Shown here: positions 12,568-17,246 of the stretch, piece after piece
Layout: every line of letters starts with the position of its first letter
Position numbering within the stretch: the first letter of the stretch is position 1
Assembly: GCA_016219175.1 (NCBI GenBank)
Contig: JACRCD010000002.1
Location: 1 to 64,000, forward strand
DNA from: Deltaproteobacteria bacterium
GTDB taxonomy: Bacteria > Desulfobacterota > Desulfobulbia > Desulfobulbales > SURF-16
Direction: 5' to 3'
DNA: 64,000 nucleotides
Translations under genes and position numbers: made by a program
Notes under the pieces: model-generated
Databases searched by the model: none
What the model saw: the letters and a program-made list of their open reading frames with translations, nothing else
Told to the model about the DNA's origin: nothing

Positions 12568-13083
12568 CTACGCGGAGCGGATGTGGCCGAGAATAATTTC
12601 TTCCAGCGCGGTTTGCGCCCGCAGAACCGCGGAGGCCGCGGTTTCAAGATTTTGCAAGACGGACGCCTCATTGCCGGTCAGGATATGCCGGCAGTTATAG
12701 TTGAGACAGAAAATGGGTTTCACCCTGAGGGTGCAGCCCTGTAAGCCAAGATAACAGCATTCACAAGAATCATCCCGCCGCTGGCTGGCAACGGTGACGC
12801 CCAGCAGCATATTTAACAGTAATAAAACAGCATCTGTTTCATTGGCCATGTAGGCGCTGCAGCACCCGCCCCCGGCCTTTTCGCCACAGGCCCTGCACAG
12901 AGAAAACATGGACATGGCAGCCATTTGCCGCTGCAGCGCATGGGAAAGAGTTTCAAGCTGCGGCAGTTTTTCTTTTACCGCGGGCAGGGCCAGCAGCTTT
13001 TGACCGAAATGGGCATGGAGTTGGTGGGCGCGGGACAGTTTCTGCTCCACCCGGCCAAAGTATAACTCATTTATGGTAAACAT
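12568..13083 (-). CDS. Cys-rich protein, YkgJ/UPF0153-like
   Basis: A 171-residue protein with about a dozen cysteines arranged as CRACGEKAGGGCC, then DSCECCYLGLQGC and KPIFCLNYNC. The CxxCxxxCC-like opening and the GCxLRxKPxxCLxYxC ending resemble the putative zinc- or iron-chelating YkgJ family, but I am not certain. The flanking regions are helical and contain no signal peptide. The ATG at 13083 has TGGAG 5-6 nt upstream. It lies downstream of the MITE-interrupted gene on the same strand and is convergent with merR-2, whose stop is 12 bp away. Its function is unknown; metal binding is the only thing the sequence suggests. Confidence 0.75.
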   Translation of the reverse strand: MFTINELYFGRVEQKLSRAHQLHAHFGQKLLALPAVKEKLPQLETLSHALQRQMAAMSMFSLCRACGEKAGGGCCSAYMANETDAVLLLLNMLLGVTVASQRRDDSCECCYLGLQGCTLRVKPIFCLNYNCRHILTGNEASVLQNLETAASAVLRAQTALEEIILGHIRSA

Positions 13084-13123
13084 GTTTCTCCATCACATCT
13101 CTGTTGCCTAATATCTAAATGCA

Positions 13124-13596
13124 TCAATTTTCACTTCGTTTTCTGTCGAGAAACCTGACTTTGTCAGTGAGAAGTTCGGCAAGCAACTCCGCTTCCATGG
13201 ATTGCATAAACCCCGAGAGGATGTAGAGATCACCTTCCCGGCAGAATGGGGTGCGGAGAAGTTGTTCAAGATCCCGATGAAAAAACAGCACCGCTGTTTC
13301 ATCCTCAATCCAGACACCGATTAAATCAGGCTCATCAAATTTGATGAACTCGTAAAAAGTCTGCGACAAAACCCGGATGGCTAAGTAACAAAATTCGATA
13401 TACAAGGCGTAGTGTATTTTTGAGAGTGAGGCTATACGTGTGGTATGCCGAACGAACAAAAATGCGCTACAACGCAGTAGATCGGATTTATGCCCTTCAG
13501 GGTATTTTTTACGACGCCATCAAATTTGGAGATGCGCGCCATGTCAAGGTGGTACACATAAAGCCTGCTGTATGATGAATAGGGTGGCCGCAGCAT
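13124..13596 (-). pseudogene. Small gene interrupted by MITE copy 2
   Basis: On the minus strand an ATG at 13594-13596 opens 23 codons (MLRPPYSSYSRLYVYHLDMA...) that run into the MITE and stop inside it. Beyond the MITE, 70 codons (DEPDLIGVWIEDETAVLFFH... to SEN and TGA at 13124-13126) continue a natural-looking protein. Deleting the 179-bp element plus one 6-bp target duplication joins the halves in frame through Lys-Phe into a 95-residue protein. The 185-bp insertion shifts the frame, so the intact protein is not made, although the distal part could be reinitiated from a MITE-borne start. The intact protein reminds me of small DUF4911-like deltaproteobacterial proteins; this is a weak assignment. 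It is probably in one operon with the AsmA-like gene upstream. Confidence 0.8.
13343..13521. mobile_element. MITE copy 2 with 6-bp target duplication AAATTT
   Basis: 179 bp beginning GATGAACTCGTAAAAAG and ending TTTTTTACGACGCCATC, nearly identical to 7948-8108. It has only a few substitutions and an 18-bp extra segment near the right end (a small palindrome around CCCTTCAGGG). The flanks are direct duplications AAATTT at 13337-13342 and 13522-13527. It interrupts the gene at 13124-13596. High identity between the copies suggests recent mobility. Confidence 0.9.
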
Positions 13597-13628
13597 TTTT
13601 TTTGTGAAGATTGTTTTGGGGTGAAGGT

Positions 13629-16600
13629 TTATTTGCCGGCAGCGGACCCGAGTTTCAAGTCAAGTCTGTTGCCTTGCCGCCCAGGGGCATCCGCGGCGAC
13701 AAGCTGAGGATTGCTGTCCTGGATAACACGGGTTTTGGCAATTTTCAAGTTGGCAACAAGAAAATCAACAACAACACCCTGCCGTTTTTTTGCAAGCTGG
13801 AGCAGTTCGCTTTTGGCCACGGATATGGCAACAACAGGCGGAGCAGGTACGGAAACCGTTTTTTGCTGGCCGGCGGGAGGAATCTCCTCCTTGCCGTAAG
13901 CCTGCGTCGCCTGCGCCGATTTTTTCTGCTCCTGGGCAAGATCCCTTTGGCGGGCCTCCGCTTTTTTTGCGGCCAGCATTGTCTCATAATCAGTGCCGGA
14001 GCTGGCATAGCCCTTAACCGTTAAGCTCAGAAGCGGTCTTTGCATCATCATCTGCCCCAGCAGGTTGAGGAATTTTTTGTTGTCTTCGGACAGATCCGCC
14101 TTCCCCGGCGCAAAAAGAAGGGAGTCAGCATATGGGGCAAGGTCCGCAAAACTTTCCTGCAGTTGGGCAAAAGGCGACACGGTTGATTTCAGCACAATAT
14201 TGCGCAGGGCGCGCCCCAGGGAGCTGGGCAGGGAATAGGCGGCGTCGGAGATGGAGCCTGTAACAGGCAGATTAAGTTTGATGTCGCCCTGTTGACCGGT
14301 AAGGATGGCCAGGGTTAACGGAAGCTGGCTGGGCGCCGAACCCTGGGGCTCTCCAAGTTTCAAACCGGTGATGAGCAAGGTGTTGCTGGACGTTACCTTG
14401 TCGCCTTCCTGGTGATAGACCGTGGAAAAATCAAGCATACCCTCACGCAGCCTGTACCCTAATCGAGATGCCAGGTAGGGGGAGAAGCCGGCAATGGGCA
14501 GATTCCGCAGAGTCGCGTTGATATCGGCGTAGAGAGAGTCGTCGAAAAAGCCCAGTTCCCCGGAGATGTTGCCTGCTGTTTCCGGGGCGGTGCTGCTGGT
14601 GATATCCAGATGCAGCCTGTTGCTCTTTGCGTTGATCAGGTTATCGGCGGTGCCGTTTACGATCAGTTTCGAGGAATAAACGGGGGTAACGCGCTGGTCG
14701 GCGAAATCAAGGGTGGCGTCCCGCAGGATGATATGTTCAATGGCAATCTGGCCGTTGTTGGTGTAATCTGTTAAGCCCGGGCTGCGCCGGCTGAATAAAT
14801 CACCAATATTTATCGGACCTTGGACGGGGATGAGCCAGCGCAAATACGATTTGTCGCAGCTCAGATCACCGATTTTCAGGGAAAATGGTCTAAAGTTGAA
14901 TTCCATGCCCGTGGCATCCGCCCGGTCCAATTTGATCAGGTCCGCTCCTTTTTCCCTTGTTGCATTGAAGTTGAGAATAGACAGTGCGCCGGCATAGGAA
15001 AAGTGGGGGATCTTGACTTCGCCCTGTACGTTTGCCTCGCCGGCAAGCCCGGTAATATTCAGCCAATCCGTCACAAGAGAGGGAAGCGTTTCAAGCTTGT
15101 AGCCCTGCAGCCGGCAGGCGAGAGTTGCTGAAAAAGGGGAGAGGCGGGCGGGGCCGGTAAGTGTCAGCGCCCCTCCCCCCAGATCCTCTGTTTCGATGAG
15201 GACATTGCCTTGTTGTTCCGGCGAGGCGGTTGCCAGGTCCGAGGCGTGGATTTTCACCTTGTCCAGGGCAAGCTTGATGGGGGTTGGCAGGGCGTTATTT
15301 TCAATATGAACGCGGGTCTCCATCATGTCAAGGGCGGACAGGGAGATGTGCCATGACCGGCCGTCACCCTCTGCTCCGTCTGCTTCACCAGGCAAGCTCC
15401 AGTTGAACTTATTCTCCTTGTCCCAATTCATGAAAATTTCCGCACTGTCAGTGCTGACCGTCAACTTTTCAAGGCGGGCGGCTTTCGGCTCAAGCTTGGC
15501 AAAGGTGATGCGCGCCTTGGGCACGGAGGCGTAGTTTTGCTCCTGGGCCGTGAGCATGATGTTGTCAAGGTCAAGGGAGGTGTCAAACAAGGTTAAGGAG
15601 CCGGCCTGGTCCTTGGCATTGTCGAGGGTGAAGCGGCTTTGCAAGTTATCAATCTTCCCCTGGGTTATTTTGAGGTTCTTTTCTGGGAGATAGGGAGAGA
15701 ATCTCTGCAGATTGGTCTGGCTGCCAACCAGCAGACCTTTCACGGACAGGGTTGCCGGGGTTATTTCTCCCTGAATGGAGATGGTGCTCTTCTCGGAAGT
15801 TACTCCGGACAGGGCAAAGGAAACAGGCTGATCGATCTGGGAATTCATATCAGCCATGGTACAGCTGAGGTTTGCAACGGTTTCAGCAAATCCTCCCTTG
15901 ACCTTCTGGTCAGTAATGGTAAGAGTGCCGTCGCTGACCGTTAACCTGTTGATGATGAAATTTTTCTTTTTTGCGGAATTTTCCTGGTCCGCGGTTTGAG
16001 TCGGGACAATAACGGGAAAAAACCAGTGGCCGTCGGCAAGCCGGCCAAGGTGCAGAACCGGATTTGTCAGGGTAATTTCCTTAAAAACATAGGTGGAGGT
16101 CAGGGGATGTATGGTAGCGCTGACCGTGGCCGCGGGGATTGTGCTGATATGCTTGCCTTGGTCTCGAAGGGATACGTCTGACAGATGGCTGGTTGTTTCA
16201 ATCTCAATATCGAGAGTCTCTTGCGGCCCGGAGGAAAAGGTTATATCCATCAACACATCGGCGGTTCCCTTATCCAGGGTGAAATTTTGGTGGGCCGGCA
16301 GATAGGAGAGATAAGCGGGAAGATCGACCGCATTGAAGTTCAGTTGCAGCTGCGCTTCAAATTTTTCTCCCTCAACCTTTGTTTTACCGGTTAAATTTAT
16401 CGGGCTCCCGTTGATAATGGCTGAAAATTTGGGATTGATATAGGAGTTGCTGACTGATAAGGCCGGCTTGGAAGCCTGGTCGTTGTCAATGTTTTGAAAG
16501 AGAAGGGGGAGATCAAGATTGATCTGCTCCAGGTTGTGACTCTTGTGCGCCGGCAGATCATCAAAAATGATTCTGCTGTTCGTCACCGTGATGTTTCTCA

Positions 16601-17246
16601 GCAGATAGGCAAAGGGCGGATACGGAACGGGAAAGCCCATGTGCTGGCGGAACGGCAGAATTTCGGCCAGATTGTATGAGTTTTCCTCATTTTTCACCAG
16701 GTGCAGAAAGAGATTGTCCACCGCCAGGCGTGAGCAGTTGAGTTGTAGACCGAAAAAAGATGACCAGGAAAGATCAGCCTCAATGGCGCCCGCTGAAAAC
16801 AAGGGGTCGATCTGGTCGTCCGGTTTGCCAAGATCCGGGCCGATAATGGCGTTGTGGACAATGAGTCGTAAGGTAAACGGGTTAAAACTGGCTGAACCGA
16901 ATGTTATGGGACGGTTGAGCCTCTTTTCCATTATTTGCGGGGCTATTTTTTTTAAAAAATAGGGGACACCGAAAAAACCGGCACAGGCATAAGCGAGAAA
17001 AAAAAACAGGGTGAAAGCTGCCAGACTTATCGAAATCCAAGGCAGCGAGGGGCGAACTTTACTTCTCCGCCGCGGGATGCGGGTTGGGCGGAAATCATCG
17101 GGTTCCGCGGGTCTTGCCGGCGGTTTCTCTTTTTCCGAAGCTGGTTGATCAATGGAAAGATCAAGATCGACATGGCCCGCGGGTCTTTTGTCCGTGTCGG
17201 GTGCGATGGTTATTGATCCAAACGGATCATCGTTTTTTTTTGCCAT
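13629..17246 (-). CDS. Giant AsmA-like (DUF748) envelope protein with OmpA-like tail
   Basis: A 1205-residue protein with a charged cytoplasmic N-terminus (about 1-68), one transmembrane helix (about 70-92; SISLAAFTLFFFLAYACAGFF) and a very long periplasmic region. The region after the helix (KRLNRPITFGSASFNPFTLRL) matches the start of DUF748/AsmA-like proteins, which form long beta-groove structures thought to move phospholipids between membranes. The last about 170 residues contain LLFAPGKADLSEDNKKFL and LTVKGYASSGTDY, reminiscent of an OmpA-type peptidoglycan-binding fold, followed by a Lys/Glu-rich helical insert. The ribosome-binding site before the ATG at 17246 is weak. Its function in envelope maintenance is inferred from the family. 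Confidence 0.85.
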   Translation of the reverse strand: MAKKNDDPFGSITIAPDTDKRPAGHVDLDLSIDQPASEKEKPPARPAEPDDFRPTRIPRRRSKVRPSLPWISISLAAFTLFFFLAYACAGFFGVPYFLKKIAPQIMEKRLNRPITFGSASFNPFTLRLIVHNAIIGPDLGKPDDQIDPLFSAGAIEADLSWSSFFGLQLNCSRLAVDNLFLHLVKNEENSYNLAEILPFRQHMGFPVPYPPFAYLLRNITVTNSRIIFDDLPAHKSHNLEQINLDLPLLFQNIDNDQASKPALSVSNSYINPKFSAIINGSPINLTGKTKVEGEKFEAQLQLNFNAVDLPAYLSYLPAHQNFTLDKGTADVLMDITFSSGPQETLDIEIETTSHLSDVSLRDQGKHISTIPAATVSATIHPLTSTYVFKEITLTNPVLHLGRLADGHWFFPVIVPTQTADQENSAKKKNFIINRLTVSDGTLTITDQKVKGGFAETVANLSCTMADMNSQIDQPVSFALSGVTSEKSTISIQGEITPATLSVKGLLVGSQTNLQRFSPYLPEKNLKITQGKIDNLQSRFTLDNAKDQAGSLTLFDTSLDLDNIMLTAQEQNYASVPKARITFAKLEPKAARLEKLTVSTDSAEIFMNWDKENKFNWSLPGEADGAEGDGRSWHISLSALDMMETRVHIENNALPTPIKLALDKVKIHASDLATASPEQQGNVLIETEDLGGGALTLTGPARLSPFSATLACRLQGYKLETLPSLVTDWLNITGLAGEANVQGEVKIPHFSYAGALSILNFNATREKGADLIKLDRADATGMEFNFRPFSLKIGDLSCDKSYLRWLIPVQGPINIGDLFSRRSPGLTDYTNNGQIAIEHIILRDATLDFADQRVTPVYSSKLIVNGTADNLINAKSNRLHLDITSSTAPETAGNISGELGFFDDSLYADINATLRNLPIAGFSPYLASRLGYRLREGMLDFSTVYHQEGDKVTSSNTLLITGLKLGEPQGSAPSQLPLTLAILTGQQGDIKLNLPVTGSISDAAYSLPSSLGRALRNIVLKSTVSPFAQLQESFADLAPYADSLLFAPGKADLSEDNKKFLNLLGQMMMQRPLLSLTVKGYASSGTDYETMLAAKKAEARQRDLAQEQKKSAQATQAYGKEEIPPAGQQKTVSVPAPPVVAISVAKSELLQLAKKRQGVVVDFLVANLKIAKTRVIQDSNPQLVAADAPGRQGNRLDLKLGSAAGK

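Follow-up and report, generated by a model that had tools for sequence, protein, structure and literature searches.

Chunjie of Geobacter uraniireducens is a bacterial MITE of 178 to 235 bp (review PMC10969869). The MITE family analyzed here resembles Chunjie as described there: its members are short and non-coding, possess terminal inverted repeats and direct repeats, and occur in tens of copies of varied length that are mostly intergenic. The likeness is one of description, and the present family differs in having no known parent transposase. One of its copies lies in a gene related to PrmA, the ribosomal protein L11 methyltransferase (PF06325/TIGR00406). With a probability of about 0.93, we interpret this locus as a multiply inactivated PrmA-like methyltransferase pseudogene containing a member of a high-copy MITE family, the insertion being one lesion among several.

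The source DNA is from a Deltaproteobacteria bacterium (SURF-16, Desulfobulbales; GCA_016219175.1, contig JACRCD010000002.1, positions 1 to 64,000, forward strand). This whole 64,000-nt stretch is referred to as the window, and the locus studied spans approximately positions 13100 to 13630.

Layout of the locus and the inserted element

The locus and its neighbors comprise the following features.

12568..13083, minus strand: intact downstream neighbor, 171 aa, syntenic in congeners
13100..13336, minus strand: 3′ piece of the PrmA-like pseudogene, orthologue residues 26 to 46 fused to residues from 215 on
13115..13117, minus strand: second premature stop, a conserved Trp codon reading TAG (codon alignment)
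13124..13126, minus strand: first premature stop, a conserved Trp codon reading TGA, the C-terminus of the 95-aa frame
13271..13276, minus strand: junction of the internal 168-codon deletion, Arg46 and then one scar codon, GAT
13337..13342, no strand: left target-site duplication AAATTT (sequence and comparison of copies)
13343..13521, no strand: MITE, 179 bp, ends GATG...CATC, self-complementary, without coding capacity
13522..13527, no strand: right target-site duplication AAATTT (sequence and comparison of copies)
13528..13596, minus strand: 5′ piece of the PrmA-like pseudogene, codons 1 to 23 from ATG, matching the N-terminus of the 275-aa orthologues
13629..17246, minus strand: upstream neighbor, DUF748/AsmA-like protein, 1205 aa, syntenic in congeners

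The initial annotation had proposed a 179-bp MITE between AAATTT duplications, and its boundaries proved right to the base when copies of the element, mostly flanked by 6-bp repeats, were compared. The terminal inverted repeats (13336 to 13358 and 13506 to 13528) have 23-nt arms that are 87% complementary. The left repeat is found a single time in the window and in 0 of 100 shuffled windows, and the element folds on itself better than shuffled sequences do (z = −3.1). Its ORFs are short and non-conserved, indicating that it has no coding capacity. The element is thus classed as a MITE from its short, non-coding sequence, terminal inverted repeats, target-site duplication, and many dispersed copies. 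This copy departs from the consensus of its class at 3 of 179 positions, and its AAATTT duplication is perfect. Rfam gave no credible match to the element and the plasmid collection no match, while a literature search with the letters of the terminal repeat returned unrelated occurrences only.

The MITE and one copy of the duplication together amount to 185 bp and therefore shift the reading frame. When the flanks are joined without the MITE, they yield MLRPPYSSYSRLYVYHLDMARIS-KF-DEPDL...RKRSEN*, a frame of 95 aa; both points had been reported previously and were reproduced when the frame was rebuilt from the flanks. Directly 3′ of the pseudogene, the 171-aa neighbor is Cys-rich, has no Pfam or NCBIfam match, and keeps its position in the congeners.

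Identity of the interrupted gene

The 95-residue frame has no match in Pfam and was searched against 58 genomes, comprising 57 relatives and the window's own. Matches were found in 29 relatives, mostly to frames of 270 to 312 aa, with two longer ones of 422 and 444 aa. In most of these 29 genomes, the query matches twice, with residues 1 to ∼60 near the start of the gene and residues 44 to 94 approximately 600 bp further on. Where both halves were found, ∼168 residues separate them. An uninterrupted 95-residue protein had been predicted to exist in relatives, but the halves were seen to be contiguous in 0 of the 29, the very outcome that the initial annotation had named as refuting its proposal.

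An intact 275-aa orthologue is present in the four species of the same genus in which a relative was detectable (G001, G002, G003, and G005), where the DUF748 and 171-aa genes flank it as they flank the window copy. The upstream part of the window frame corresponds to residues 1 to 46 of this orthologue, and the downstream part to its last ∼60 residues. The two sides of the insertion therefore belong to one gene, and the earlier statement that the MITE was inserted in a coding frame is upheld. The G005 orthologue matches PF06325 (PrmA) over residues 88 to 266 with 119.6 bits, against a cut-off of 22. Unlike canonical PrmA, the intact orthologue does not reach the TIGR00406 equivalog (103.6 bits versus a cut-off of 183.15), and its N-terminus lies outside the PF06325 match. 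Because the TIGR00406 score falls below the cut-off, the gene is called PrmA-like only. All four congeners bear a second, canonical PrmA (210 to 224 bits). As judged from these sequence comparisons, the window gene is a pseudogene of a PrmA-like paralogue. No intact copy of the gene and no PrmA protein were detected across all contigs of the window's own genome, in an assembly estimated to be 98.4% complete, where the best PF06325 match scored 34 bits. A literature search on prmA null mutants gave no useful result.

Relative to the intact syntenic orthologues, the window copy carries a 168-codon deletion, two stops, and the MITE, by which it is identified as a pseudogene. In the codon alignment, the missing codons correspond to orthologue residues 47 to 214; the deletion is in frame, leaves one codon at the junction, and removes the SAM-binding core (LDLGTGTGLLSIAAA and its surroundings). 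The hexamer ACCGGG is found at both ends of the deleted stretch in three of the four congeners. A conserved TGG that has become TGA ends the 95-aa frame at RKRSEN, and three codons further on a second conserved TGG has become TAG; homology continues past both stops in the 3′ piece. A conserved Phe-Trp pair is also replaced by Cys-Arg. In total, the window copy breaks 4 of 23 near-invariant columns in the retained part (F to C, W to R, and W to stop twice), while 27 intact homologues break zero or one each, except for one distant outlier with three. The MITE is inserted at codon 25 and would by itself truncate the protein after 25 native codons. The retained codons show neither a raised dN/dS nor clear relaxation, which suggests that the gene was under selection until recently and probably died recently; this point weighs against the favored reading.

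These lesions alter the reading given in the initial annotation. The joined 95-residue sequence had been described as the exact ancestral allele, but the congeners have 275 aa, and the window copy lacks 168 codons and has acquired two stops. The locus had also been presented as a fresh knockout of an intact gene, a view that is not supported. The window gene has undergone no fewer than three other inactivating changes that have nothing to do with the MITE. The insertion itself could plausibly be recent, given the perfect duplication and the 3/179 differences. A frame that re-opens once an insertion is removed need not be the ancestral gene. Removal of the MITE does not restore the ancestral gene here, and the locus represents ordinary genome decay.

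The element family in this and other genomes

The window's own genome yielded 43 BLAST matches to the MITE, a few of which are two pieces of one copy, so that about 41 copies or more are present. When up to three mismatches were allowed, the left terminal repeat matched 124 times in the genome, and many of these matches fall at contig ends, where the assembly is broken within the element. Comparison of copies fixed the ends at GATG...CATC. There are two main length classes, of 179 and 161 bp, which differ by the 18-bp block TATGCCCTTCAGGGTATT. Among 39 copies with readable flanks, 26 have a 6-bp duplication, 7 a 7-bp one, and 1 an 8-bp one; the consensus is AANNTT. The family is a main cause of fragmentation of the GCA_016219175.1 assembly.

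The flanks of 39 copies were joined by script and examined for frames spanning the site (at least 150 codons in total and at least 20 on each side). Long spanning frames were present at 4/39 MITE sites, compared with 73% of random window positions. Among the four, some look non-coding or artefactual by eye; the frame at L102 includes element sequence, and that at L024 seems to contain a gene starting after the site. The family is thus located almost wholly between genes, owing to target preference or selection. Because nearly all other copies with readable flanks are intergenic, the present locus is weak evidence that the MITE knocks out working genes, and the proposal that the element can disrupt genes is borne out to that extent only.

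Related elements are present in the same genus, family, and order. Among the matches listed, the exact 19-base terminal repeat was found in many genomes, mostly of Desulfobacterota, and also in a few records named Nitrospirae, Bacteroidales, and Neomarinimicrobiota. The terminal repeat GATGAACTCGTAAAAAGTC flanks elements of varied interior, 59 to 344 bp long, with 6-bp duplications (L131 to L210). Candidate partner elements were sought in 20 own-genome stretches around terminal-repeat matches and at 80 loci of other genomes, with a second end within 6 kb; long ORFs beside a terminal-repeat end were checked at a dozen loci. The stretches scanned contained only the short elements of 59 to 344 bp and no autonomous transposon sharing the MITE ends, and no transposase was recognized between terminal-repeat ends at the loci scanned when ORF translations were judged by eye. 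The loss of a gene is itself ordinary. The data also document a MITE family that is present in great numbers, has a terminal repeat common to many Desulfobacterota, and is moved by a transposase yet to be named.

Several individual copies are unusual. At L102 (G000:C15:16965-18279), two copies adjoin with only one shared AACCTT-type duplication between them. L100 (G000:C6:14594-15880) holds a 275-bp version with its own 6-bp duplication, which seems to be a MITE copy with an extra ∼96-bp insert. Many contigs end approximately 140 bp inside a copy (e.g., C2, C4, C12, C23, C25, C38, C40, C61, C82, and C85).

Sequence of events and alternative explanations

A transposase would have recognized the GATG...TCGTAAAAA ends, and the MITE would have been inserted at an AANNTT-like site by cuts staggered by about 6 bp. 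Slippage or end-joining between short repeats such as ACCGGG may have produced the internal deletion, the deleted bases being no longer visible. Most likely, the MITE arrived late, in a gene that was already dead or dispensable; if the gene was already dead, insertion into a coding remnant fits the intergenic pattern of the family. The order of MITE, deletion, and stops is not proven, as it cannot be read from one genome.

The MITE may instead have been what first inactivated an intact 275-codon gene, with the deletion, stops, and substitutions following in decay. In favor of this order are the truncation after 25 native codons that the MITE would cause by itself and the unraised dN/dS, which implies a recent death by any route. 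This order must nevertheless accommodate three or more additional, independent disabling changes, the perfect duplication and near-consensus copy suit a late arrival, and the family is otherwise almost absent from genes; we consider it unlikely, although it retains appreciable weight. Rather unlikely, too, is the composite proposal that the MITE was the primary inactivating event in a lineage without any recognizable PrmA and that the element represents an undescribed Desulfobacterota-wide MITE superfamily with an unnamed transposase. The 95-residue frame could also be a real shortened functional protein recently broken by the MITE, as joining the flanks gives an open frame and the deletion left the reading frame unchanged. 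Such a protein would lack the SAM-binding core and terminate at a nonsense codon past which homology extends, and it has no contiguous counterpart in the relatives searched, which makes this reading very improbable. An assembly chimera at a repeated element has even less to commend it: many contigs of the assembly do end within MITE copies, but here both flanks derive from one gene in one orientation with a common duplication, the copy has its own variants, and both sides are syntenic with four congeners. The chimera was rejected on this synteny.

The multiply inactivated pseudogene, with the MITE as one of its lesions, is therefore the reading we retain. In another genus, a short PrmA-like match (L060; G039:C111:2505-2648) contains an internal TGA and a 55-aa open frame, and is perhaps an independent decayed copy.
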